Below are positions 44,895 to 57,806 of a stretch of DNA of 57,947 bases, piece by piece. The notes under the pieces are model-generated. The model was given only the letters and a program-made list of their open reading frames with translations, searched no databases and was not told the DNA's origin. Origin of the DNA: Phycisphaerales bacterium (GTDB lineage: Bacteria; Planctomycetota; Phycisphaerae; Phycisphaerales; SM1A02); contig SIAA01000010.1 of the NCBI GenBank assembly GCA_009692045.1, positions 1 to 57,947 on the forward strand. The letters are read 5' to 3'. Each line of letters begins with the position of its first letter. The first letter of the stretch is position 1. The translations under genes and the position numbers were made by a program.

Positions 44895-45779
44895 TTACCA
44901 GTCGGTCAGCTTGAGACGGCTGATGACATGGTCGTTGCAGAAGTCAGACATGCCATCGAGCAGCGCTTCCTCGCCTTGATACACCATGGTCATCAACAAC
45001 TGAACGCCCACAGCAGCGACGAGCGCCACTAGTGTTGTCTCGAATGCTGTGGCAAGTCCGGCAATAACGGGGGTGAGTTTCTCCCTGATGTCTGTAACAG
45101 CTTCTGCCGCCGCGACGACCCCCGTCGTATCGGGATTGGCCATGAGAACTCCCTCAAAGTTGCCGATGGCATGACCTAGTCCAACAACGGTGCCAATGAA
45201 ACCGAGAACGGGAATGGTCCAGATGAGGGCGCGGATACCGGTGTAGGAACTGTCAATGGCGCTGGTGTCCGAGGAAGCCTGGGAGTCGATTACCGCTCCC
45301 ACATCCTTCACCTCTCCGATGTTCTTGAGGTTAGAGAGGGCGAGATGCAGGCGATTGAAGAGCAGGAACTCCCGCGGGCGCGCCACTAGACGCCGGATTC
45401 CTGCCAGTACTTCTGGTGCCGTGGCGGGAGAGAGCACCCAATCGCTGCGCCGAGGAAACACCTCCTCCACTTTGAGTGCCTTCATCTGAATGCGGGTCTT
45501 GGTCCACTTGGCGAGCAGGATGAACAGGCACCAGTAGGTGAGTAGGGCACAGGCCCAGTTGGTCCAGCAGCGATTCATCATGTTGAACATGTACCCATCA
45601 CTCCAGATACTGAGCACAAAGAAAGTGGCTACGGTGAGTATCACAGAGATGCCGAACCACAGTCCACCTCGCGCTCGGGTGAATCCGCCACTGCGACACC
45701 CCATCATGCATTCAAGGTCACCCGTCGCCGAATCAAGGGTGCCTGACAACTCCTCTGAACCAACAGCTTTTGAGCTCAT
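44895..45779 (-). CDS. MotA/TolQ/ExbB-family proton channel protein
   Basis: From the ATG at 45777-45779 (ATGA overlap with the upstream gene) the protein has 294 residues; a longer frame would run into that gene. The first two membrane helices are at about 38-60 and 69-91. The last two carry the family pattern: IPVLGFIGTVVGLGHAIG, then LTPVIAGLATAFETTLVALVAAVGVQLLM. A cytoplasmic loop of about 110 residues lies between the pairs. In the family five copies surround two B-type helices and use the ion gradient for work. It is followed by two possible B-type partners in the same operon. Confidence 0.88.
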   Translation of the reverse strand: MSSKAVGSEELSGTLDSATGDLECMMGCRSGGFTRARGGLWFGISVILTVATFFVLSIWSDGYMFNMMNRCWTNWACALLTYWCLFILLAKWTKTRIQMKALKVEEVFPRRSDWVLSPATAPEVLAGIRRLVARPREFLLFNRLHLALSNLKNIGEVKDVGAVIDSQASSDTSAIDSSYTGIRALIWTIPVLGFIGTVVGLGHAIGNFEGVLMANPDTTGVVAAAEAVTDIREKLTPVIAGLATAFETTLVALVAAVGVQLLMTMVYQGEEALLDGMSDFCNDHVISRLKLTDW

Positions 45780-46891
45780 GGCGATTCCTCCTGGGGCGAA
45801 TGATCGGTCTCCGATTCTGAATCCACTGACCAAGTCTCGTGAAGTGCCAGGCCCGTGAGCATGGTGAAGCAGATACCAGCCACTTGCCACTTGGTTGCAT
45901 CCAGCACGGCAAAGCGGTCGCCGCCTAGAGCACACTCATGACTGCCGACAAGAAGCGCGGCAGCGAGAGCCAACACTACGCCAACAATGGCGAACCAGGC
46001 GGCTGATTGGATCAGGCCCTTGCCGGCTCGATGTACGCAGAGTCCGATGGTGAGGGCACTTGTTGCCGCCACGAACGCCGAAGTGATGCTGAGAACGCCG
46101 CTGTTCATAGCCGTGAGCGCACTGATCGGAACAATCACCGCAACTAGAGCGCACAGCAGATAGGTACACCACTGGGGCACCATGTTCGTGCGATGCCAGA
46201 TCGCACAGAGCATCGCCACTGCGCCAGCGAGCATCGTTAGGCCCGAGCCGATGACAAGCCAGGCGCGCGCCGGGCCAAGCCCCGCCGCAATGCTGGAGAG
46301 TTGAACTGCTGCCGTGGCGGCGATGGCAATGGTGATGGCACGAGCACGAGACTCGTGGACGGCTAGCGCCACAGCCACCGTGCAAGTCATGCAGGCGATC
46401 AGCAACAACATGATCGAGTAAGGAAGAGCGTTACCGCCCTCTGCAACCTGCCACCACCAACGCACTCCCTCCGCGCCTCTGCCCACGGGAAGGAGAACAC
46501 AGAGACCAATCACCAGCACGCAGGCAATATCCACAGCGACGATCGACACTCGCAGCCCCCCTACCACCATCGTGTTTGCTCGTGCTGTCGCGGCGGCGCT
46601 CCACCTACTGCCCCGTGGGACTGCAGCCTCAAAGTCGGACTCGGCCAGCGGCGGATCGTCAGGGGATTGAAGCGCACTGCTGGGAGCACTGTGCTCTCTT
46701 GAGCCTTTTGCGTCCGACCAGAGCTCGCGCACCGCACTTGCGTCAACCCACGAAACTCCGTCGGCACTGACAGAGTGAATACGGGACAACTCCCCTCGCT
46801 TCGCCATCACACGCAACTGCTCCAAAGTGTATGGCCCCTGAACTAATGCACCCAATCTCATCCGCCACGAGCGTGATGCCTTGTCACTCAT
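45776..46891 (-). CDS. GYF_2-domain multipass membrane protein
   Basis: From the ATG at 46889-46891 (ATGA overlap with the upstream gene) the protein has 371 residues. Residues about 10-55 match the GYF_2 (DUF4339) pattern: ALVQGPYTLEQLRVMAKRGELS, then DGVSWVDA. Such small domains bind peptides or partner proteins in the cytoplasm. An acidic linker follows, then seven or eight hydrophobic helices with no recognisable transport signature (for example VAVDIACVLVIGLCVLLPVG and FAIVGVVLALAAALLV). It lies between the 962-residue protein and the TolQ-like gene and may connect the motor to the rest. Confidence 0.72.
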   Translation of the reverse strand: MSDKASRSWRMRLGALVQGPYTLEQLRVMAKRGELSRIHSVSADGVSWVDASAVRELWSDAKGSREHSAPSSALQSPDDPPLAESDFEAAVPRGSRWSAAATARANTMVVGGLRVSIVAVDIACVLVIGLCVLLPVGRGAEGVRWWWQVAEGGNALPYSIMLLLIACMTCTVAVALAVHESRARAITIAIAATAAVQLSSIAAGLGPARAWLVIGSGLTMLAGAVAMLCAIWHRTNMVPQWCTYLLCALVAVIVPISALTAMNSGVLSITSAFVAATSALTIGLCVHRAGKGLIQSAAWFAIVGVVLALAAALLVGSHECALGGDRFAVLDATKWQVAGICFTMLTGLALHETWSVDSESETDHSPQEESP

Positions 46892-49776
46892 GGGACCTGC
46901 CCCATCCAGATTGGTGTTCCCGGAGGCAGCCCACTGGCGCCGCTGCTTAGCTCGATGGCACCGCTCGAGCCGACCTTTCCCACTTGGTGGAATACGCATT
47001 GGCCACTCGCATCCAGATCAATGCTCCAGAGAAGTTCGCCAGATAGAAGCGAACCCCGAGCGGGCACCGCAGCGGGGCCGCCAGGTCCATCGAGCATCAT
47101 CCCCACGGGCTTTAGCGCCAGTTGCAGCACTCTGGCAGCATCAGCGTTGCCGCGATCGCGCCCGCGAGCGATCGCCGAAGTGTCGAGTGCCGAGAGCAGA
47201 GCTGCTTCCAGCTCTTTGGTACCCGGCCGTTTGGCAAACTCGCTTTCAGCAACCCAGTCGATACCCTCTGCCTCAGCCGTTTGCCAGCGCTCCACTGCTT
47301 GGGTGAGGGCGGGCGACAAGAGAGGCGCATCTGCTGCAATAGCTTCACACAGTCCGATCAAGAGATAAGTTCGAATGGCTGGATCAACTCGCTTCGCGTT
47401 CTGAATCAGTTGTAGCGCGCGCAATGCGTTGGTGATGCTCGGGTCGGCAGAGAGCCCCTTGACCAGGGGCAACAAGGTGCTGCACAACTCCGCCTGAGGG
47501 GACTGCCCCTCAAACACGACAGCCTTGGCGGCGATTCTCTCGAACCTGGTCTTCAGGTCATTGGGCGAAGTGAACACTTCATAAATGCGGATTCGCTCCC
47601 CATCAATCAGTGAGTCTGAAACGAGTCTGTGAGGATCGAAGTAGAACGATCGCCCATCCACCAACCGCACCTGATGGAAGCTCATGGGCGGCCACTGGTT
47701 CAGTGTCAAAGTCAGGGCTTGGACCCACGACGATCCCTCGACAAGAGAGGTTCGATATGCCTGAACTCCCAGCACGAGAGGCGAGAGGGCTGCCGTCTTT
47801 AAGAATTCGTCAAGTCGACCAAGGCGCTGTGACACATCTCGTGACGAATCCGGTCGGGACTCGAGCCTCAGTTGCTCAGCAAGGGCCGACCACCGTGCCA
47901 CGGTTTCCCAGCAGGATTGCATTCCCGCTGCTACCAAGAAGTCGGCAGACAGGAGGGAGTCCTCGTGTTTCTGGGCAAATGCTCGCAGTCGCTCCGCGAA
48001 GCGCGTGGGGTCAACGGTCGCTTGGGCGCAGGCGCGCAGATCATCGCTCAGGACTAGATCCTTGCTAGCCGATTCGCGCGCCAACTCCACATCCCCTCGA
48101 ATCTGCTTCAGTCGCTGGGTGAGGCTGGCCGCCGCCGCGCGCGCGCCGGAAGAGATACCGGGGCGCCTCTCCAACTCGCTCAGTTGCAGGTCAACCTCAT
48201 CGACGCGCATCATCGCATCCGATCCGAGTGGGTCGAGTTGATTCAATCCGACCACGGCTTCGCCAATGATGGTGAGTGCATCGGCAAACTTTGAGTCGCG
48301 CTCGGCTTGTCTAGTGGCTTGGGCGGCGGTGTACTTCGCTTCCCAGTCCGCCGTTTCTGCCAGCTCCTCTTCGGTGCTGGCAATGTCGGCAGCGGATCGC
48401 AATCGATCGGCTCGCGCCCCCTCTGAATCGGGAGTTCCAGCCGACTCCATGAGGGAGCGGAAGGATGCTGCCCGCTCCGTCTCCGCCGTTACCGCCATGA
48501 CGAGGGCCGACTCTGCTACTGCCAGCACCTCGCTCCCAGGATCCAATACAGCTCCCTCATCCAAGAGGCTTTGCGCTCTATCGAGGTACCCAGTGGCGAT
48601 GTTCATGGTCACCGCTGCCGCGATCTCTGTTGACTTTGCCGTTCGCAGGACGCTTTGCACAGCCACGAACCCCGCCGCTGCCATCAGCGCCAGCACCAGC
48701 AGCGACGCGCCTCCTATGGCAACGCGTCGACGCCGCTTGGCCATGCGAATCTCCCCTATGCGCGCCTGCGCCAACTCCTGTAAATCATGGGGACATCCAT
48801 CCCGATTCCCATCGACAGCACGAAGTCCCTGCACCAGCGCCTCCATGCTCGAGTCTGACTTCTCCAGCAGGCGGGAGAGATTGTCGACACGCGCGCGCTC
48901 GCTTTGACGGTGCGCCACCTCTCTCTCGCGCGCCTCCAGCCAGTCAACTACCAGTTTCACATTTTCCGTGGCTGCCGCTGACACCTTTACCGGAGCGTCC
49001 GACATGAACCACTCCAGCACGCGCCACTCTGCCACGCGAGCCGATGCGGCCGCGACATCCTCGGCCATGTAATCGGCGTAGAGAAGTTCTGACACCTTTT
49101 GGGCTCGCGCTGCCGCGGATTCTGCCGCATCCGCCCACAGTCGTTTTCCCATTTTGTGGGCGACGGCGGCGGCGTCAGGATGAGTCCAATCGCCAGCGGC
49201 CAGCTCGGTGCAAATGGCCCACGCGTCGTCACGGAAGCTCTCTGTCTTCATGTAGATATCAAACTCCGCCACCATCTCCTGCAGAGCAGCCTCCTCGAAC
49301 GCCAGTACATCCTGCCGCCACGCAGCGTTGGTTGGGTCGCGCGCCACCAATGAACGCAGGGTTTTCAGCCGAACTCGCGCGGGGGCCAAAGCCAGATTCT
49401 GTCTTCGATAGCGCGTGAGTGTGGCGCGCATTGCTTCGATCTGTTGCAAAGACGCATTGAGCTCAGAAACCACCTCGGGCGCCAGCCGTGCTGGGGCTGG
49501 CAGTGAGTTGACACCACAGAACTTGGCCCAACTGGCTAAGAGCTCGCTGGAGAGGGCCACTGCCAATTCGGGAAAGTCTCGCAAACTCTGAATCTCCCAC
49601 TCCGCCTCTACTCTCTGGCCGCGGCGCGTCATCTCCACGCATCGAGTGAGCACGGCGTGAACCTCTCTTGAGGTTGCCGCAACCGAAGTTGCCACTCGGT
49701 TGACTTCCTCGCGATCCCTGATCACGCCCTCTAAGACAAGGCGCACCGAGTCGAGTAGTTCTGCCGCTCGTCCCAT
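46888..49776 (-). CDS. Large single-pass membrane protein of unknown function, 962 residues
   Basis: I do not recognise the family. The N-terminal 345 residues are helical and, because KRRRR lies just before the membrane helix at about 352-376, they should face the cytoplasm. The following 585 residues would face outward and are also mostly helical, with Ala/Glu/Arg-rich coiled-coil-like stretches. The last 60 residues look like a beta-rich domain (LLWSIDLDASGQCVFHQVGKV). Its start shares one base with the upstream stop (TAATG). The size and the central anchor suggest a scaffold that spans from the cytoplasm to the envelope. Confidence 0.7.
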   Translation of the reverse strand: MGRAAELLDSVRLVLEGVIRDREEVNRVATSVAATSREVHAVLTRCVEMTRRGQRVEAEWEIQSLRDFPELAVALSSELLASWAKFCGVNSLPAPARLAPEVVSELNASLQQIEAMRATLTRYRRQNLALAPARVRLKTLRSLVARDPTNAAWRQDVLAFEEAALQEMVAEFDIYMKTESFRDDAWAICTELAAGDWTHPDAAAVAHKMGKRLWADAAESAAARAQKVSELLYADYMAEDVAAASARVAEWRVLEWFMSDAPVKVSAAATENVKLVVDWLEAREREVAHRQSERARVDNLSRLLEKSDSSMEALVQGLRAVDGNRDGCPHDLQELAQARIGEIRMAKRRRRVAIGGASLLVLALMAAAGFVAVQSVLRTAKSTEIAAAVTMNIATGYLDRAQSLLDEGAVLDPGSEVLAVAESALVMAVTAETERAASFRSLMESAGTPDSEGARADRLRSAADIASTEEELAETADWEAKYTAAQATRQAERDSKFADALTIIGEAVVGLNQLDPLGSDAMMRVDEVDLQLSELERRPGISSGARAAAASLTQRLKQIRGDVELARESASKDLVLSDDLRACAQATVDPTRFAERLRAFAQKHEDSLLSADFLVAAGMQSCWETVARWSALAEQLRLESRPDSSRDVSQRLGRLDEFLKTAALSPLVLGVQAYRTSLVEGSSWVQALTLTLNQWPPMSFHQVRLVDGRSFYFDPHRLVSDSLIDGERIRIYEVFTSPNDLKTRFERIAAKAVVFEGQSPQAELCSTLLPLVKGLSADPSITNALRALQLIQNAKRVDPAIRTYLLIGLCEAIAADAPLLSPALTQAVERWQTAEAEGIDWVAESEFAKRPGTKELEAALLSALDTSAIARGRDRGNADAARVLQLALKPVGMMLDGPGGPAAVPARGSLLSGELLWSIDLDASGQCVFHQVGKVGSSGAIELSSGASGLPPGTPIWMGQVP

Positions 49777-50747
49777 TAGTTTTCCTGTACCGATAGCTGT
49801 ATAGAGGCGCGAATGACGGAGGTCGCCTCATCGGTGAGGTCTATCTTTGCCACCAATCCAGGTAATAGCGGGGGCGAGGCGCGTGAGGCCAACTCCTTCT
49901 CGAGAGCACTCAGTCTTGCCAGATCAGACTCGAGAATTTTCTTCTCGGTTTCGCTTGCTCCCTTCAGCATTCGCTCAGTCTGGCGCAGATCGCTGCGCAC
50001 GGACTTGAGTTCATCCGTTGCCTCGCTGTGAACCCTGACCATCATTCCGCGCCTCGCGCCAAGGTAGGAGACCGCCACTTGCCATCCCGCCGGATCGACC
50101 AGAACTACCGAAGTGGGAGAACTGGTTAGGACTGTCCATTGATCGCTCGCAGTAGACGAAACCATAATCGAGTCGGACAGTGTGGGAAATGGGTGGTTCA
50201 TCACCTCGCCCGGCTTGACACTCGCCGACACCATCTCGCACGGCGGTTCCACTCGAATAACTCTCCCCTTGCCGCAGTCAAGCTCGATGACAGCGCCACT
50301 GAGGAACTCGTCCAATGCCGGGAGTGGCTCCGCGGCGCTGCCCTCAAAGAATGTTCCCCACTTGAAGCGCAACTCATTGCCGCTCCATGACAACTCTCCG
50401 AGCTCGATGGGCTTCGCCTTGGGGATGTCAACAACGAATGAAATGGCATTCGCCTTTTGCTTCAGGTGAAAGGCTGCACTACTAGGAGCGGGCTGGAACT
50501 TCACGGCAGTGATCGCCGACGGAGCACTGGCGATCAGTTCGGTTGATGGCCGCACCTTGCCGTAGCCATCAACTTTTCTTGCGAAGGCTGTGAGGCTTCT
50601 GGCCATTACTTCAGACCCCTCGGGAGGCGGGGAAGCGGGACTGCCATTCTGATTGGCAGCGCCCGTCGCTGATGGTGTTACGACCTGATGCGCCGCGCCG
50701 AGTAGGCACGCCCACATAATCGTCATTATGACAACCGGCATTCTCAC
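49776..50747 (-). CDS. Exported protein of unknown function, 323 residues
   Basis: I do not recognise the family. A hydrophobic N-terminus (VVIMTIMWACLLGAAHQ, about 4-20) looks like a signal peptide. Next is a Pro/Ser/Ala-rich linker, a beta-rich domain with an Ig-like look, and a coiled coil at about 238-285 (ELKSVRSDLRQTERMLKGAS). The last 35 residues return to beta strands. It resembles the C-terminal half of the upstream protein in style (beta domains that flank a coiled coil). It begins with GTG, in a GTGA overlap with the upstream gene, and shares one base with the downstream one. Confidence 0.65.
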   Translation of the reverse strand: MRMPVVIMTIMWACLLGAAHQVVTPSATGAANQNGSPASPPPEGSEVMARSLTAFARKVDGYGKVRPSTELIASAPSAITAVKFQPAPSSAAFHLKQKANAISFVVDIPKAKPIELGELSWSGNELRFKWGTFFEGSAAEPLPALDEFLSGAVIELDCGKGRVIRVEPPCEMVSASVKPGEVMNHPFPTLSDSIMVSSTASDQWTVLTSSPTSVVLVDPAGWQVAVSYLGARRGMMVRVHSEATDELKSVRSDLRQTERMLKGASETEKKILESDLARLSALEKELASRASPPLLPGLVAKIDLTDEATSVIRASIQLSVQEN

Positions 50748-53254
50748 TTTGCTGGCACCTCGCCGTAAATTTCCAACAAGGGCACTCCATGATCAGTAGA
50801 GACTGTTGCTCGAAAGCGGCTGATGGCAGTCAGCGCTTGGATTGTCAGTTCTGATTTACCAAGAGGACTGTCGGCGAGCTTCTGGTCTACTTGTCGGAGC
50901 GCGCTCGTCTCTTTCTCCAGTTCCGACTTCAGCGCGGTCAGCGCCTGATTCAAAGCATCGCGCCGCTGTTCCACATTGCCGCCGAAGTCCTTCACGAGGT
51001 TGGGAAGTCGGCGGGTCATTATCGCCTTCGATGAGTTGGCCAACAGCCCACGCAGGTTCTCAAGGATTTCTCTCTCGCGCGCGCTCGGTGCGACCCCGCC
51101 GGTTCGAGCAAGTTCGTTTTCAATACTCTGCTCCGCTTGGAGGATGGCCACATCCGAGCTCAATCCCCCGACTGTTGCTTTCAGATGTGCCAGCTCAGTC
51201 TGCAATGAGCTCGTCTGCGCGGCAGACGCGGGGGTGAACTTCGCTGTAATCGCCTTGCCGCTTGCCTGGAAACCGAGGACCACTTGCCCCATCTCGGATC
51301 CTTCAGACTCAATGACCAACTCATGAGAGTCACCAGGCTTCAACACCCGTGGCTCCCCCTCACCCATCTTCACGGTTACCGACTTGAGCGCGGCTGCGAT
51401 TGGCTTCACCACCTGAGCCGCTCCACTAAGGTTGGCCCTCTTCGGCGATCCGAACCGCACCCAAGATGCTTGACCACTCTTGTCAGTAACCTTAAATCCA
51501 ATGAGGCTGGCGAGATCGCGGATCCCTTCTCCATCTTTGAGCGATAATTCTTTGAGTTTTTCTTGGCACACTTGAGTGAGCTTCTCGACGCTCCACTTCC
51601 AGACAACAGAGTCACTCTCAGTCTCCCACTCACCGAGCGTCTCCCCAAACACCTTCAGCTTGGGACCGTCAACCACGAGCTCTACCTTCGCCGTATCGGG
51701 AATCAGAATCGCGGCGCTGCTGCCCTCCATGATCAGTTGTTCGGGCAGTGGTTCGAACTTGAAATTCTTAGTACTCAGCGCGGGCACCTCGATGCTGGCC
51801 CACACTCGCGGAGCATTCGACAACGGCGCCGCCGCGGCGGCGGCAACCGATCTCTCAGCAGCGACCCGCGCCTTGGTAGCCGCCATCACCTGTTCCTGAA
51901 GCTCTTTGGACTCCGACTCCAGATCCGCCACTTGCCCTCTAAGCGTGTCGATCTCGCCTTGAAGCGTGTCCGATTGAGTCAGAGCCGCGCTCAGTTTCCC
52001 CTTGAGCTCCTCGATATCTCTCCTCTGATCCCTGGTGTCGGCAGTGACAGGCAAAGGCACCGCGGCGGCGACCTCGGATACGACTGATGGCGATTCCTGC
52101 TTCACTTGTGCAGCTATCTCCGCTGTTGCCAAGCGCGACTTTAGGAGCGCGATCTCCGATTGTGCCATCAGCCAAAGCACTGCTGTCAATACCAGTCCTA
52201 TTGTCACCACCACCAGACCGGCGAGCAGCACCGCCTGACTCTTTCTAGCCATCCTGCCGATGGAGGTCGGTGTCTCCGAGCGACATTCACGACTTGTGTT
52301 CACGCCTCTGGTGGTATCGCGAGAAGCCGCATGAGCAGTTCTCTCGCCGTTGCCCTCTACCACTGGCTCGACTTCGTATGAGCCACTATCCGATTGCCGT
52401 GTTTCGTTCCCGCCGCCAAACAGGAAACTGCTGGAGCCATCCGCGCGACCCTCGTCCTGCTTTGCGGGCACGAACACATGGCCGGCGCGCGCGGCGTTGA
52501 TGGAGGCATTGGTTCGGTGGAGAGGATGCTTAGCGCAGAGGTCAATCACCTGTGCCGAGCGTTGCGCTGCCTTTGCCGCCTCGCTCCCCTCCAAACAAAA
52601 CCGCCAAGAGCATCGCAGTCCCGCCACCGGCTGCATGAAGTAGGAAGAGAAGGTGACTCGCCATCTTGCCTCAGCTGGCAATAGCGAAAGTGCTTCGTCC
52701 ACAAGGGCAAGAACCGGCGTCCCCATGGGATAGATCACATTGACGGGACGCGTGGCGTCGAGCAGGAAGAATCCGACCAGCACCCCGGCCCATCCAGCGT
52801 CACCTGAAACCTGCTCCCATGTTTCGCAACTCGCCGAAGTGCGGTTGCCTGTTATCGGCACGACTCGCTCTTTCTCGATGTGGGTCGCCTCCCCCTGCCA
52901 CCCGTCAGACATGGTCCCCGATTGCAACATCATCCAGGCGGCTCCCTCGCTCACCAACTCATCGGGCTTGAGCACTACATAGTGTGCGTGCTTGTTTGAT
53001 CGCTGGGTGTGATCGGGCGACGCGCCGCGCACCGCGGCGAGTATGTGCCGCTCGACTCCCGCGAACTCGACGATCCAGTGCGAGAAGGCGACCGGAGATT
53101 CGCACATCCCCTCGGGCGATCTGTATCCGCTGAGGGGCTCCAGCTTGCTGATCAATGAGGTGGGAAATCCACGCGTAGCCGCGACCGTGCAAAATCCGCT
53201 GGACCCGGGGGCCAATCCCCTCGTGGCGGATGTGTAGTACATCTCAATCGCCAT
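50744..53254 (-). CDS. GAP1-type (GTPase-associated protein 1) membrane protein
   Basis: From the ATG at 53252-53254, which overlaps the GTPase gene by 11 bases, the protein has 836 residues. The first 235 match the GAP1 N-terminal pattern known from GTPase-linked loci: EMYYTSATRGLAPGSSGFCT, then LEPLSGYRS, DHTQRSNKHAHYVVL, and PAEARWRVTFSSYFMQ. A polar linker follows, then one membrane helix at about 342-364 and a coiled coil of some 60-80 residues. The outer part has two beta-like domains and a second coiled coil. In the published survey of such loci, GAP1 proteins pair with the double-GTPase family; here it pairs with the GTPase gene just upstream. Assignment is by pattern memory. Confidence 0.68.
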   Translation of the reverse strand: MAIEMYYTSATRGLAPGSSGFCTVAATRGFPTSLISKLEPLSGYRSPEGMCESPVAFSHWIVEFAGVERHILAAVRGASPDHTQRSNKHAHYVVLKPDELVSEGAAWMMLQSGTMSDGWQGEATHIEKERVVPITGNRTSASCETWEQVSGDAGWAGVLVGFFLLDATRPVNVIYPMGTPVLALVDEALSLLPAEARWRVTFSSYFMQPVAGLRCSWRFCLEGSEAAKAAQRSAQVIDLCAKHPLHRTNASINAARAGHVFVPAKQDEGRADGSSSFLFGGGNETRQSDSGSYEVEPVVEGNGERTAHAASRDTTRGVNTSRECRSETPTSIGRMARKSQAVLLAGLVVVTIGLVLTAVLWLMAQSEIALLKSRLATAEIAAQVKQESPSVVSEVAAAVPLPVTADTRDQRRDIEELKGKLSAALTQSDTLQGEIDTLRGQVADLESESKELQEQVMAATKARVAAERSVAAAAAAPLSNAPRVWASIEVPALSTKNFKFEPLPEQLIMEGSSAAILIPDTAKVELVVDGPKLKVFGETLGEWETESDSVVWKWSVEKLTQVCQEKLKELSLKDGEGIRDLASLIGFKVTDKSGQASWVRFGSPKRANLSGAAQVVKPIAAALKSVTVKMGEGEPRVLKPGDSHELVIESEGSEMGQVVLGFQASGKAITAKFTPASAAQTSSLQTELAHLKATVGGLSSDVAILQAEQSIENELARTGGVAPSAREREILENLRGLLANSSKAIMTRRLPNLVKDFGGNVEQRRDALNQALTALKSELEKETSALRQVDQKLADSPLGKSELTIQALTAISRFRATVSTDHGVPLLEIYGEVPAK

Positions 53255-54560
53255 GTGATTCCCCAGAGTCAACTTCATCCAAGGCAGGTGGTTCGGCAGC
53301 GCGGCCCCTCGTTGACAGTGTGCCGACTAGCGATCGAGACCAACGCGCAAACGCATAGGTGAATGGAACATCAATCCAGCGCGGAAGCACCTGCTGGGGT
53401 CTCACGCGCAGCAGGCCGTTGGCTGGATCAATCGTGGGCGCGCATCCCAAGGCGCTCACGGGAATGAACTCGACTCGACTGAATGCCGCTTCGGCTGCGG
53501 CGACAAACTCGGGAACCGTGCCACTCATGAGTGTGTGTAGTTTGGCACTCACCCGTTCAATCCGCGCGGTGTCCATCACGGCAACACCACCTGCCGCGCC
53601 TGGCGCGTAGGGGTCGCTGCGCAGATCCTCATCGGGGATCAGCTGCTCCCAAGCATCACTCTTGGACAAGATGACGAGGAGTGGCTGGGTCAACTTTTGC
53701 CCTGCGCTCATGCCCGAGTAGGAACGCACTCGATCAATCATCTCGGAGAGAACGATGTCCTGTCGGCTTGATCTCTCCCCCGGCCGCAACTGCGGATCTA
53801 GAGCCGTCTGGGAGAGCGTGCGGCGAAACCGCACATCCTGGGTGGGATCGAACACAAACAGGATCACTCTTGAGCGCGCCAGATGTTGTGTCCCCGGCGC
53901 GGTCGCCGAGTCGGCGCCTGGAAGAAAGTGCTCTCCCGCGTTGTCATACAGACAGAGCACCTGGCGCAACTCGTCCTTCGCGGCGCCGTTGGGATGGGCG
54001 TCTGTTGGAGTCATAGTGAACAGAAATGGGTGCGGTAGGAGAGTTGGTTGCCCGGGATCGAACTGAACAGAGTTGTACTGAAGGCCCTGCATCTCAGTCT
54101 TCTCGATGTGGACAAACTCGTGGGGATTCTCCCGTAGAAACAGGCGCTCCTCATTGGCATTGACCACACTGTTGATCAGAGGCTCAGAGTCAGTGAACGA
54201 GAGACCAAACTTGGATGGCATGGTCTGGCGCATGCGCCAGCAGGCGCAGGTGATTATGTAACTCTTGCCGCTCGCCGGTGATCCGACCATGGAGAAGATC
54301 TTGGGACGGCACTCCAGCAGCACCATGGGGAGAGGGAGATGGCAGCGCGGACAGGCCACGCGCTGGCAACGGGACCCCTTCTCGTCTATCGCCTCCCCGC
54401 TGGGGCTGAAGCGCGAGGGAAGAAACCGGCGCTGATCATCGCTGGTGAGAAGTTGGTCGCCGCGCAGGTCTTGGTGACTTGAGATCCAAAGAATTTCCTC
54501 CGGCCGGAAACGATGCCAGCAATGAGGGCAGAGCGGTTTGTTGATTAGAGGTCGCCGCAC
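53244..54560 (-). CDS. Zinc-ribbon P-loop GTPase (double-GTPase-like)
   Basis: From the GTG at 54558-54560 the protein has 438 residues; the frame continues to 54884 but that part is Pro-rich, antisense to the divergent vWA gene and unlike the rest. A zinc ribbon is formed by CPHC (11-14) and CPRC (70-73). The G domain has the P-loop GSPASGKS (93-100), a Walker B-like LYDNAGE (204-210) in the place of DxxG, the VILFVFDP strand, SKSD (299-302) in the place of NKxD, and PVSALG for G5. This matches the DO-GTPase group found with GAP1. The start has no strong ribosome binding site. It is the first gene of the eight-gene operon. Confidence 0.75.
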   Translation of the reverse strand: MRRPLINKPLCPHCWHRFRPEEILWISSHQDLRGDQLLTSDDQRRFLPSRFSPSGEAIDEKGSRCQRVACPRCHLPLPMVLLECRPKIFSMVGSPASGKSYIITCACWRMRQTMPSKFGLSFTDSEPLINSVVNANEERLFLRENPHEFVHIEKTEMQGLQYNSVQFDPGQPTLLPHPFLFTMTPTDAHPNGAAKDELRQVLCLYDNAGEHFLPGADSATAPGTQHLARSRVILFVFDPTQDVRFRRTLSQTALDPQLRPGERSSRQDIVLSEMIDRVRSYSGMSAGQKLTQPLLVILSKSDAWEQLIPDEDLRSDPYAPGAAGGVAVMDTARIERVSAKLHTLMSGTVPEFVAAAEAAFSRVEFIPVSALGCAPTIDPANGLLRVRPQQVLPRWIDVPFTYAFARWSRSLVGTLSTRGRAAEPPALDEVDSGESHGD

Positions 54561-54630
54561 GGTTTTGTGCCTACTCGCAGAGGCAACTGTATATAGTAGT
54601 AGGCGTCTATTCGAACCCAACGGTACCGGC
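54561..54630. promoter_or_regulatory. Divergent promoter region of the GTPase operon and the vWA gene
   Basis: Seventy bases separate the two chosen start codons. TATATA lies at 54590-54595 and can serve as a -10-like core in either direction. On the minus strand TTCGAA lies about 16 bases upstream of the element. The exact promoters are not certain. Confidence 0.35.
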
Positions 54631-55617
54631 GTGCTAACAACCTGCACACAACCATTTCGTGATCGTTCGCTTGGTGGAGCGGCGGTCGCATGCGCACTTC
54701 TGATTGGCATCCTGATTTGGGCCATGCTCGCCCCGGTGGCAGGAGCGGGTGGTACGGGTCGTGGAGGCATTGGTAGTGGCAGCGGCCCTGGGACTGGGGA
54801 TGGCGGCGGGACGGGAATATCGGGCGCAGGTCCCGGAGCCGGACTAAAAGGCACCGGCCCGGGGGCGGTACCTGATGGAGACACAGATGTACTTCGAGGA
54901 ACACCAGATGGCGTGGATCCCCAGAGTGATACTCAACCATTGAATGAACTGGCGGGAGCCACGGTGGTGATCCCGGAGTTTGGTTTCGATGTCGATGAAG
55001 TGCCGCCTCCAGTTACGCCTCCGACCACGGCTTCGACCGCGCCATTCGGAACCGATCCCAATGCCAAGACGCGCGAAGGAGTGAGTGGTGCTGCAGGCGG
55101 CGCTGAGTTCATGGGAGTTCGATCAAAGGGCCAGAAGTTCGTCTATGTATTTGACATCTCAGGAAGCATGGCCACAGACAACCGAATCATCCATGCACAG
55201 TTGGAGTTGCAGCGGTCGATTGACCGACTCGGTCCAGATACCGAGTTCTTCATCATTCTGTTTGAGTCAGGCGCGCACCCCATGCTCAACCCAACACTGG
55301 TGCGTGCCAATAAGGGCAACAAGGCCAAGTACATCGCCTGGGTCAAGGAGCAAGTTCCTCAGGGAGGCACGAGACCAGAAGCAGCAATGGCGCAAGCACT
55401 CGCCATGAAACCAGATGCGATTTTTCTTATGACTGATGGCGAGTTCGAGGATATCGCCGCTGTAGATGCGGCAATCAATAGTGGCAATTCCAGCCGCGAA
55501 GTGATGATTCACGCCGTGGCGTTTCATTCCCAAGATGGTGAAGCGCAGCTACAAGCAATCGCGGCGAAGAACAACGGTCAATACCGCTATGTTCCGCCGC
55601 CTAGTGCTGTGCCGTGA
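54631..55617 (+). CDS. Membrane-anchored von Willebrand A domain protein
   Basis: From the GTG at 54631 the protein has 328 residues; a longer frame from a TTG at 54538 would overlap the GTPase gene. One membrane helix is at about 15-37. A Gly-rich, then Pro/Thr-rich linker of about 120 residues follows. The vWA domain has a complete metal-ion-dependent adhesion site: DISGSM (175-180), the Thr in GGTRPE and the Asp in LMTDGEFED. No MoxR-type AAA gene is next to it. The domain would lie outside the cytoplasm, and the linker would give it reach. The divergent position suggests it belongs with the operon. Confidence 0.83.
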   Translation: MLTTCTQPFRDRSLGGAAVACALLIGILIWAMLAPVAGAGGTGRGGIGSGSGPGTGDGGGTGISGAGPGAGLKGTGPGAVPDGDTDVLRGTPDGVDPQSDTQPLNELAGATVVIPEFGFDVDEVPPPVTPPTTASTAPFGTDPNAKTREGVSGAAGGAEFMGVRSKGQKFVYVFDISGSMATDNRIIHAQLELQRSIDRLGPDTEFFIILFESGAHPMLNPTLVRANKGNKAKYIAWVKEQVPQGGTRPEAAMAQALAMKPDAIFLMTDGEFEDIAAVDAAINSGNSSREVMIHAVAFHSQDGEAQLQAIAAKNNGQYRYVPPPSAVP

Positions 55618-55629
55618 GTCTGGGCCGCG

Positions 55630-56295
55630 CTAGCTGCTCACGCCCTCAAGCGCCACAACCACCCGTGTCTCATCACTGACGGCGCCGTTGTCGGCTCCAT
55701 AACTCACGCCAAAGTCAGTGCGCTTGATGGTGAACATCGCCTCGAATCCTGCACGCTTCCCCATGGGGCCGTCAGCTTCTCCCAGCGCCTGCATCTTCAC
55801 AGTAACTCGCTTGGTAACTCCGCGAATGGTTAGGTCGCCGGTCACCTCAAACTGATCGTCTGCCAGCGCCTTGCTCGAAACAGACTTGAATGTCATGGTG
55901 GGAAACTCGACAACATTGAAGAAGTCGGGGCTCTTGAGATGACCATCGAGTTTGGGATTGTTCGAGTCAACGCTGTTGGTATCGATGGTCACATCGAGTT
56001 CAAGCGTGGCTCCTGCCTGGTAGTTCGCCGTTCCACTGATGTTGTTGAACATCCCCCAGAACCTGCCTGCGCCCAGGTGTCGTACGCCGAACATTGCCAT
56101 CGAGTGGACATCGTCGATTTTGTAGTTGGTGGAGGGTGTACTCGATGCAGCCGGAACAGCTGCGGACTGCCCGTTTGTGATTGCTGGGGATGACTGAGTT
56201 GCGATGACCGTGTCGCCACCGACCAAGTTCGCAGCGGTCGCCGACATGAGAACTAATGCCAGCGCCGATGATGAAACAGTTGTGAACGATGTCAT
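55630..56295 (-). CDS. YceI-family periplasmic protein
   Basis: A 221-residue exported protein. A signal peptide ends near residue 27, then an Ala/Ser/Thr linker leads to the YceI domain: YKIDDVHSMAMFGVRHLG, then DVTIDTNSVDSNNPKLDGHL, SPDFFNVVEFPTMTFKS and GDLTIRGVTKRVTV. YceI is a lipocalin-like barrel that binds isoprenoids or amphiphilic molecules. The gene is convergent with the vWA gene, with a 12-base gap. Confidence 0.92.
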   Translation of the reverse strand: MTSFTTVSSSALALVLMSATAANLVGGDTVIATQSSPAITNGQSAAVPAASSTPSTNYKIDDVHSMAMFGVRHLGAGRFWGMFNNISGTANYQAGATLELDVTIDTNSVDSNNPKLDGHLKSPDFFNVVEFPTMTFKSVSSKALADDQFEVTGDLTIRGVTKRVTVKMQALGEADGPMGKRAGFEAMFTIKRTDFGVSYGADNGAVSDETRVVVALEGVSS

Positions 56296-56634
56296 TGTTG
56301 CCTCTGTAGTTGGAACTGAAAATGGAGTCAGTCCACGGACTGACCGGATTGCTGCCGGATACCAAAGAAATCTTCAAGACCTACCAAAGCCATGCAGCGT
56401 AGCCAAACTCGTAACACTAGCTGAGCAGCGGCATGGTTCGGCCGATTGGCGATGCAGCCGCTGAGTGTTGGAAACCCCGCTGATTTGACACTCCTAAAAC
56501 GGGCTTCCTCGAAATGCGCTAGTCACCAGACAACTGCCTGATGGTGCCAGAACCGCTGGCAATCTAAATGGGGGGCTACATCCCCCGCCCCGTCCGCTCA
56601 GTTTCGCTCTATAGCAACTTAGAGGTGTTGCGTC
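56296..56634. other. Intergenic region after parB with two hairpins
   Basis: About 340 bases without a gene. TGCCAG-AACCG-CTGGCA (56545-56561) and a short GGGGG/CCCCC hairpin around 56571-56586 lie 50-90 bases beyond the parB stop on the minus strand. Neither is followed by a T run, so they are weak candidates for 3' end structures. The promoter of the YceI gene must lie at the left side of this stretch; I cannot place it. Confidence 0.45.
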
Positions 56635-57789
56635 CTATAACTCGTCTGCAGGAACGCCCATTAGGCCCAGCAACCCCTCGAACTGCTCATTGGAGTAGAA
56701 CTCCAGGGTGACGCTTCCAGTCCCTTGTTTGCGCCCCGACTTGATCGTGACCTTGGTTCCGATCTTTGCGCCAATCCGCCGCTCGAGATCAGCAAGGTGG
56801 GCGACTACTCCGAGGTGGCCATGCGGCAGGCGCTGGTTGGGGGACATTGACGATTGTAACCTTTGAACTTCTCTTTCAAGTTGGCGTACCGACCAAGACT
56901 CACTGACTGATTGCTCACCCACCTTTTTTCGAATGCTGGGGTTTGTGATCGCCAGTAGAGCCTTGGCGTGACCCTGAGAGAGGTTTCCGCTGCGAACGCA
57001 GCCTGCCGTCCATGGGTCGAGTTCACACAATCTAAGTAGGTTTGCGACCGACGCTCTGTCCAATCCGACTCGCCTTGCCACCTCCTGCTGGGTGAGGACA
57101 AACTCCGTTGCCAACCTTTTCATCCCCTCTGCTCTATCCATCGGGTTGAGATCTTCTCGCTGGATATTCTCGACTAGCGATCGGACAGCAGCGTCACGAT
57201 CATCGGCTGACTGAACGATGCAGGGGATCATGCCTCTTTTTAGCTCTTGAAATGCCCTAAACCGCCGTTCGCCCGCAATGATCTCGTAGCCAGAACCTAT
57301 CCGTCTTACTGTAATGGGCTGGATCAAACCGGTAGCCTCGATACTTGAGGCCAACCCCTTGATCCCCTCCTGGTCAAACTGTTTTCGAGGCTGGTTCCTG
57401 TTCGGCGTGATCTGAGATAAAGGAATGCTCAGGATCGAGCCTTGCGAAGTTGCAGGCTCATTGGTTTCTTGGATTGACGCCCCTAGATGCCGAGACTGCT
57501 CCTGACTGACCGCCTCAGGCCTTCCGCCATCTGACTTGGGGAGGTGGCTCATTGGAGCTCTACCTTTGGCTTCCACCACATCCAACTCACCTGGACCGAA
57601 GTCTGCCTTAGGGTGGTTTTTGTGCTGCGGTTTTTCAACTGCAACGTTGCTTGAAGCGCCCACAACTACTACCGACGGGCTGGCTCCTGCCGATTTCACA
57701 ATAGGAATCAGGCGACCCAATCCGCGACCGAGTCGCGCAACGGCGCCATGCTTGGGGGAGGACGATCCTTCGTTTCCATTGGCATCCAT
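56635..57789 (-). CDS. parB: Chromosome partitioning protein ParB
   Basis: CTP-dependent clamp that loads at parS and organises the origin region. From the ATG at 57787-57789, with GGAGA seven bases upstream, it has 384 residues; a TTG two codons earlier is less likely. The N-terminus has LGRGLGRLI. A long variable linker of about 90 residues follows. Then come the conserved SILSIPLSQITPNRNQPRK, the CTP-binding GERRFR, the segment NIQREDLNPMDRAEG and the DNA-binding helix-turn-helix TQQEVARRVGLDRASVANLL. The dimerisation region is at the C-terminus. A parS site lies 18 bases upstream. parA is expected beyond the window edge. Confidence 0.95.
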   Translation of the reverse strand: MDANGNEGSSSPKHGAVARLGRGLGRLIPIVKSAGASPSVVVVGASSNVAVEKPQHKNHPKADFGPGELDVVEAKGRAPMSHLPKSDGGRPEAVSQEQSRHLGASIQETNEPATSQGSILSIPLSQITPNRNQPRKQFDQEGIKGLASSIEATGLIQPITVRRIGSGYEIIAGERRFRAFQELKRGMIPCIVQSADDRDAAVRSLVENIQREDLNPMDRAEGMKRLATEFVLTQQEVARRVGLDRASVANLLRLCELDPWTAGCVRSGNLSQGHAKALLAITNPSIRKKVGEQSVSESWSVRQLEREVQRLQSSMSPNQRLPHGHLGVVAHLADLERRIGAKIGTKVTIKSGRKQGTGSVTLEFYSNEQFEGLLGLMGVPADEL

Positions 57790-57806
57790 GCTCAATCTCC
57801 ATGATT

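Follow-up and report, generated by a model that had tools for sequence, protein, structure and literature searches.

GTPases of the double-GTPase (DO-GTPase) group have been described together with GAP1-N2 domains, zinc ribbons and, in planctomycetes, neighbouring GYF and TM-rich proteins, and all of these arrangements were read as biological conflict systems (Kaur et al. 2020, eLife, PMC7159879). The main text of that study (PMC7159879) makes no mention of ExbB, TolQ, MotA, PilM, longin, roadblock, DENN or TagF, and within the literature that we could search there was neither another paper naming DO-GTPases nor one linking a GTPase with ExbB and GYF, or GltJ with zinc and GYF. Two other described systems invite comparison. 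In Zorya, ZorA and ZorB form an ion-motor-like pair with a coiled-coil axle protein. In the MglA/MglB-AglRQS-Glt system of Myxococcus xanthus, the small Ras-like GTPase MglA and the roadblock protein MglB are accompanied by a motor of one TolQ-type and two TolR-type proteins and by envelope-spanning partners.

The locus reported here lies in a stretch of 57,947 nucleotides from a Phycisphaerales bacterium (contig SIAA01000010.1 of GCA_009692045.1, from position 1), called the window below. It opens as the GAP1-N2 systems of Kaur et al. do (PMC7159879), with the same zinc-ribbon DO-GTPase followed by a GAP1 protein carrying GAP1-N2 and GAP1-M, but in contrast to those conflict systems it continues into a constant hub protein and a TolQ/ExbB-like motor triad and has no FNIII protein or variable effector. 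No FNIII or effector domain was found in its eight proteins or in the divergent neighbour V, and the gene set is constant in relatives. As far as our search extends, the GTPase-GAP1-hub-motor operon, its PilM alternative, its GTPase-less variants and the resemblance of GAP1 to TagF and longin/DENN proteins have not been described.

An operon of GTPase, GAP1, hub and putative motor genes

Eight co-directional genes, A to F, R1 and R2, run along the minus strand from 54560 to 43212 (Table 1). Neighbouring genes overlap by 11, 4, 1, 4, 4 and 4 bases and the sole gap, of 43 bases, lies between F and R1, so that by its layout the locus is a single transcription unit. The preliminary description had confined the unit to 50744-54560; its coordinates, genes and motifs stand with corrections to DxxG and NKxD, but the unit was ended too early, and the conserved six-gene continuation with its TolQ/ExbB-like motor was overlooked. 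YceI and ParB genes (window 55630-57795) adjoin the operon both here and in locus L016, a conserved synteny.

Table 1. Features of the operon, with positions in the window unless a locus is named.
Feature	Position	Strand	Basis
A: zinc-ribbon DO-GTPase, 438 aa, GTG start	53244..54560	-	PF19993 E 3.3e-5; conserved residues, 89 homologues
Split zinc ribbon of A, CPHC and CPRC 56 residues apart	54342..54530	-	conserved cysteines
B: GAP1, 836 aa from second ATG	50744..53254	-	PF20013 70.2 bits, PF20014 45.3 bits
GAP1-N2 and GAP1-M domains; longin/DENN- and TagF-like predicted fold	52535..53248	-	pLDDT, fold matches
Candidate GTPase-contact loop of GAP1, D89-x3-R93-S-N95-xx-A98	52985..53014	-	conservation vs GTPase presence
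GAP1 membrane helix, N-terminus inside	52106..52249	-	charge bias and predicted model
GAP1 coiled coil, predicted periplasmic	51863..52027	-	helix 418-472 in predicted model
C: 323 aa, hydrophobic at the N-terminus, predicted to lie in the periplasm	49776..50747	-	hhalign link to GAP1 C-terminal part
D: 962 aa hub, one membrane helix	46888..49776	-	present in almost every homologous locus with sufficient DNA
E: GYF domain and multi-helix membrane protein	45776..46891	-	PF14237 24.3 bits (cut-off 25.8)
F: TolQ/ExbB/MotA-family channel subunit, 294 aa	44895..45779	-	PF01618 25.3 bits (cut-off 22.9)
R1: one-helix coiled-coil protein, SFFSFQD motif, Asp18 opening helix	44048..44851	-	motif conservation
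R2: R1 paralogue, LFLD motif, Asp24 opening helix	43212..44051	-	motif conservation; hhalign
V: von Willebrand A protein, divergent and membrane-anchored; position of true start uncertain	54538..55617	+	PF13768 47.7 bits
Reduced GTPase and shortened GAP1 region, hub and motor kept	L022:13038-14482; L023:15480-16945		
Contiguous genes for FHA-GTPase, short GAP1, D, PilM and one-helix proteins (PilO/GspM-like; proline-rich)	L060:9446-18962; 15 further loci of this kind		

Gene A reads from its GTG at 54560 to the stop at 53244. Both its P-loop (G93-SPAS-GKS100) and its zinc ribbon, with conserved C11/C14 and C70/C73, had been recognised before and are borne out, whereas the claim that LYDNAGE stands in place of DxxG is wrong, as DNAG is itself a DxxG and the Glu occupies the position of Ras Gln61. 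The reported substitution of SKSD for NKxD is real but replaces just the first Asn, K300 and D302 being invariant in 89/89 homologues. Across the same 89 proteins the P-loop GK98-99 and D206-NAGEH (DNAGE 89/89) are also invariant, G93 is conserved and C11, C14, C70 and C73 are nearly invariant. The DO-GTPase2 family (PF19993) matches A at 24.1 bits, just below the cut-off of 27, and matches 7/8 orthologues with a best E of 2.3e-9; together with the G motifs with Glu after DxxG, the N-terminal zinc ribbon and the position upstream of GAP1, this agrees with the earlier assignment to the DO-GTPase group. Against PDB sequences the GTPase profile gave chance or coiled-coil matches only.

The mechanical GAP1 reading frame starts at 53278, but M9 of this frame is the first residue conserved among orthologues, and we therefore place the true start at the second ATG (53254), which gives exactly the 11-base overlap with the GTPase gene reported earlier. 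A profile check had been proposed for GAP1, and both of its domain scores exceed the cut-offs of 24; the third domain, GAP1-C, gave no Pfam match in the protein at E up to 1. In the predicted model the C-terminal part consists of a membrane helix (344-391), a coiled coil and a beta domain, in keeping with the helix and coiled coil of the preliminary description, and the N-terminal flank of the helix carries more positive charge in 25/32 orthologues. It is a reasonable reading that this anchor ties the GTPase to the membrane. The suggestion that a membrane-anchored GAP1 might be new does not hold, since GAP1 with C-terminal membrane segments was already described (Kaur et al. 2020, PMC7159879). 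Three loci (L168, L169 and L184) have a second GAP1 gene upstream of the GTPase gene.

The GTG start of C overlaps the GAP1 stop by 4 bases, and the protein shares a domain with the C-terminal periplasmic part of GAP1 (hhalign probability 95 over 72 columns, E 3.9e-8). D is predicted, with a mean pLDDT of 87, to consist of about 350 aa of cytoplasmic helical repeats, one membrane helix and about 580 aa in the periplasm, the helical repeats lying on both sides of the membrane helix and the charge distribution indicating a cytoplasm-first orientation in 33/34 sequences. Its predicted fold matched generic helical repeats only, with no recognisable relative, and the PDB sequence search gave chance or coiled-coil matches. 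E, whose start was assigned from its 4-base overlap with D, is a multi-helix protein that scores below the GYF_2 (PF14237) cut-off (Table 1) and shares the GYF and TM-rich neighbour feature of the planctomycete systems of Kaur et al. 2020 (PMC7159879). V, a divergent VWA protein, stands beside the operon in most Phycisphaerales loci; because the VWA profile drifted, matching YceI as well, only VWA genes directly divergent from the GTPase gene were counted.

F belongs to the MotA/TolQ/ExbB family by its PF01618 score (Table 1), carries the invariant motifs P197-V-x-GF-x-GTxxGL and GLxTAFxTT, and among PDB sequences gave nothing better than TolQ at E 0.84. R1 and R2 are paralogues (hhalign probability 99.2) that fit the ExbD/TolR/MotB layout, with a single N-terminal helix, an Asp invariant in all examined and a gene position after the channel gene. 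At the start of the membrane helix, the R1 motif F[SA]FQD is present in 24/24 F-linked loci displayed and the R2 LD in 22/22 R2 displayed, one locus being counted under two ids. In Pfam and other profile searches neither protein matched ExbD (PF02472), TolR or MotB, so that the putative axle function is argued from position, topology and the aspartate; against PDB sequences their profiles gave chance or coiled-coil matches only. R2 weakly matches ZorB (E 7e-4, in 1/12 R2 sequences) and PRK09039, and the PADLOC matches of R1 (DruC, JetC and others) were judged to be coiled-coil artefacts. The window genome contains three canonical ExbB sets elsewhere.

Like F, AglR carries PF01618 (PMC3169522); AglQ and AglS carry PF02472, which R1 and R2 do not, and no Glt-type domain is found among the eight genes. 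A specific kinship with AglRQS based on the one-TolQ-two-TolR layout was considered and rejected, as the same genome has two more ExbB sets with two ExbD genes apiece and as planctomycetes have stand-alone zinc-ribbon ExbB genes with two axle-like genes and no GTPase. Because R1 and R2 fail the ExbD profile and the one-plus-two layout is common in the genome, the likeness to AglRQS is a works-like statement and not one of membership. Among sets that lack a GTPase, the closest relatives of F-R1-R2 that were found are the stand-alone planctomycete ones (L177-L181, with SLFPFLS... and SLDSLLD... motifs). The Zorya comparison likewise stops short of membership, with no match to ZorC, ZorD or ZorE and only the weak one to ZorB.

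Conservation of the core and exchange of its output

A GTPase profile recovered 411 relatives in GTDB species genomes, and profiles of the window proteins were then applied to these and to genomes related to that of the window. The best 80 of the 411 are almost all from Planctomycetota and Lentisphaerota, with a few from Verrucomicrobiota and Kiritimatiellota; no relative came up when genome contigs were searched with GAP1 alone. Nearly every locus with enough DNA has the A-B-D core, and Phycisphaerales, Pirellula and other Planctomycetota share the order A-B-(C)-D-(E)-F-R1-R2. F-R1-R2 is present in 21/47 loci having at least 3.5 kb beyond D, and A-B-D stands without F at many loci of planctomycetes. 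The window belongs to a supported clade (98*) of the GTPase tree, whose 22 rows comprise 15 with the motor, 7 too short to judge and none without it. Conversely, wherever an examined genome gave a strong F match (E < 1e-80), GTPase, GAP1 and D adjoin, except in L167 (at a contig edge) and L175 (D only), and weaker F matches belong to the stand-alone zinc-ribbon ExbB sets. The operon is present in 33/397 genomes of the class, and identity to L016 is 56% for F and 48% for A, next to 46% for the housekeeping ParB and 54% for YceI.

In 16 loci of Lentisphaerota and Verrucomicrobiota, mostly the former, PilM (PF11104, up to 83.7 bits) comes after the A-B-D core together with one-helix proteins, the first of which weakly matches T2SSM or PilO in most members. 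The GTPase of these loci has an added FHA domain and their short GAP1 has no membrane helix. PilM here takes the place of the motor after the same core. The core thus joins up with at least two types of envelope machine, and D is the link they have in common.

Several loci depart from these arrangements. At L175:2860-7000, where GTPase and GAP1 are missing, a histidine kinase-like gene lies upstream of a shortened D-like gene with F, R1 and R2. L019:3566-10147 has GAP1 and D without a GTPase gene, beside a xylose isomerase-like gene and with ParB and YceI close by; its genome (G017) has a more complete operon elsewhere. The contig L032 (CALQCP020000004.1), which bears the title Chitinophaga pinensis, has almost the same operon as planctomycetes and is probably a mislabelled bin.

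The GAP1 loop and predicted fold

In two planctomycete genomes of the same family (L022 and L023) the GTPase gene keeps its zinc ribbon without the G domain, and GAP1 is cut down to its N-terminal part and membrane helix. The retention of D, F, R1, R2 and the VWA gene makes the GTPase look like a switch whose output is the machine. The GAP1 loop D-x3-R-x-N-x2-A has R93 and N95 in 44/44 loci with an intact GTPase, very diverged ones included, while D89-R93-N95-A98 is degraded in 2/2 GTPase-less loci and only there, a sample of two losses in which both GAP1 copies also lost other conserved residues. Being kept where the GTPase is intact and degraded where it is missing, the loop is tied to the GTPase.

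The GAP1 model has a pLDDT above 90 over most of residues 11-260. Its sole Foldseek match under 1e-3 was TagF (E 2.2e-4), which represses type VI secretion and is also the best structural match of the N and M domains together (VIA; Z 8.5 over 226 residues, rmsd 4.5). Next to it stand DENND1B bound to Rab35 (Z 7.9 over 235 residues), DENND10 (7.7), a Lokiarchaeal longin (7.3) and the longin domains of GATOR1, FLCN, Lst4 and C9orf72 (5.4-6.8); about half of the 50 listed VIA chains are longin/DENN/roadblock or TagF proteins, although common arrangements also reach Z values within this range of 5-8.5 (under 8). Known longin/DENN GTPase regulators are eukaryotic or Asgard.

With regulators of this type (DENND1B, FLCN, NPRL2 of GATOR1, C9orf72-SMCR8) the predicted GAP1 model shares a longin-like strand order and a second alpha/beta domain that follows. 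Its loop with the invariant Arg sits, in the predicted model, between the 4th and 5th strands of the longin-like domain; the arginine finger Arg78 of NPRL2 is likewise on a longin-domain loop (PMC8534245), and a catalytic role of R93 is putative. TagF works on an FHA protein (PMC5995506); an FHA domain is also part of the GTPase in Lentisphaerota. In contrast to TagF, however, the operon has no T6SS genes and there is no match at the sequence level, the GAP1-N/M profile having matched neither TagF nor longin/DENN proteins and having given chance or coiled-coil matches only among PDB sequences. We treat the resemblance of the predicted fold to TagF and longin/DENN proteins as a lead, to which a GTPase as the genetic partner of GAP1 and the invariant Arg on the loop of the longin-like domain add weight.

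A proposed GTP-controlled envelope machine and its alternatives

We consider the chances even that the eight genes build one inner-membrane machine, in which a GTPase/GAP1 switch drives an ion-driven motor through D. Such a machine would join cytoplasmic control to periplasmic arms. The zinc-ribbon GTPase would act as a molecular switch, bound to the inner membrane through GAP1 and its zinc ribbon, and GAP1 as its regulator, the longin/DENN-like N and M module touching the GTPase through the D-x3-R-x-N loop and the helix providing the membrane anchor. D would relay the GTP state to the output, with F as a TolQ/ExbB-like channel ring and R1 and R2 as axle proteins with a membrane aspartate, and the work done would reach the periplasm by way of D, GAP1, C and the divergent VWA protein. 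The GTP state may toggle the motor or its coupling, comparable to the control of AglRQS by MglA in Myxococcus. Observation supplies the layout of the operon, its conservation, the exchange of its output module, the joint loss of the GAP1 loop and the GTPase domain and the likeness of folds; for this machine we infer GTP switching, direct GTPase-GAP1 contact, ion flow with motor activity and the movement of a cargo; that it serves surface attachment, movement or export rather than defence is a guess.

Kaur et al. 2020 (PMC7159879) class GAP1-N2 systems, the planctomycete GYF/TM-rich ones included, as conflict systems, and the operon could accordingly be an anti-phage or self-killing device with a threshold set by the GTPase and with membrane proteins that kill or depolarise the infected cell, the ExbB-like channel working in a Zorya-like way. 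Its patchy presence (33/397 genomes) would suit such a role, as would the MotA/MotB-like motor that Zorya too employs and the weak R2-ZorB match. Yet the operon proteins include no toxin, nuclease or FNIII component and gave no strong PADLOC match, the output module does not vary and equals housekeeping ParB and YceI in conservation, synteny with YceI-ParB extends to a related genus, and a search of 72,556 plasmids and 50,697 phages at E 1e-10 gave no GTPase relative. A constant and conserved output, the missing effector or FNIII component and the lack of plasmid or phage relatives make this reading less likely, and we regard it as improbable.

We likewise doubt that GTPase, GAP1 and D are a positioning or cytoskeletal module for polarity, division or scaffolding, the ExbB-like genes being a TonB/Tol-type energiser of outer-membrane import or stability that the GTPase regulates loosely. 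The occurrence of D with GTPase and GAP1 but without the motor in Lentisphaerota and some Planctomycetia, that of D and the motor without GTPase and GAP1 in L175, and the actin-like nature of PilM speak for it; the operon nevertheless has no TonB- or TolA-like partner, its fixed gene order and translational overlaps argue for one complex, and the window genome already has its three canonical ExbB sets. Least probable of all, and in our view very unlikely, is that the neighbours are functionally unrelated genes sharing an operon for expression only, with GTPase and GAP1 acting alone: many loci do have A-B-D without F-R1-R2, but the order is invariant over deep distances and the strong F family is strictly linked to A-B-D.

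Beyond the single machine, a GTPase with a longin/DENN-type regulator may be a general switch for envelope machines, acting through D on a motor in Planctomycetota and on a PilM-based pilus or secretion platform in Lentisphaerota, and GAP1 and TagF may be bacterial counterparts of the eukaryotic longin/DENN regulators; we put this forward tentatively, as possible but appreciably less probable than the machine itself.

DO-GTPase/GAP1 systems are known from computation only and were previously filed as conflict systems. The constant motor or PilM output on the same core points to a different and testable function, namely GTP control of envelope machines, and the GAP1 loop that vanishes with the GTPase domain names the residues to mutate. 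If true, the resemblance to TagF and longin proteins would link the GTPases of bacteria both with T6SS regulation and with the GTPase regulators of eukaryotes.
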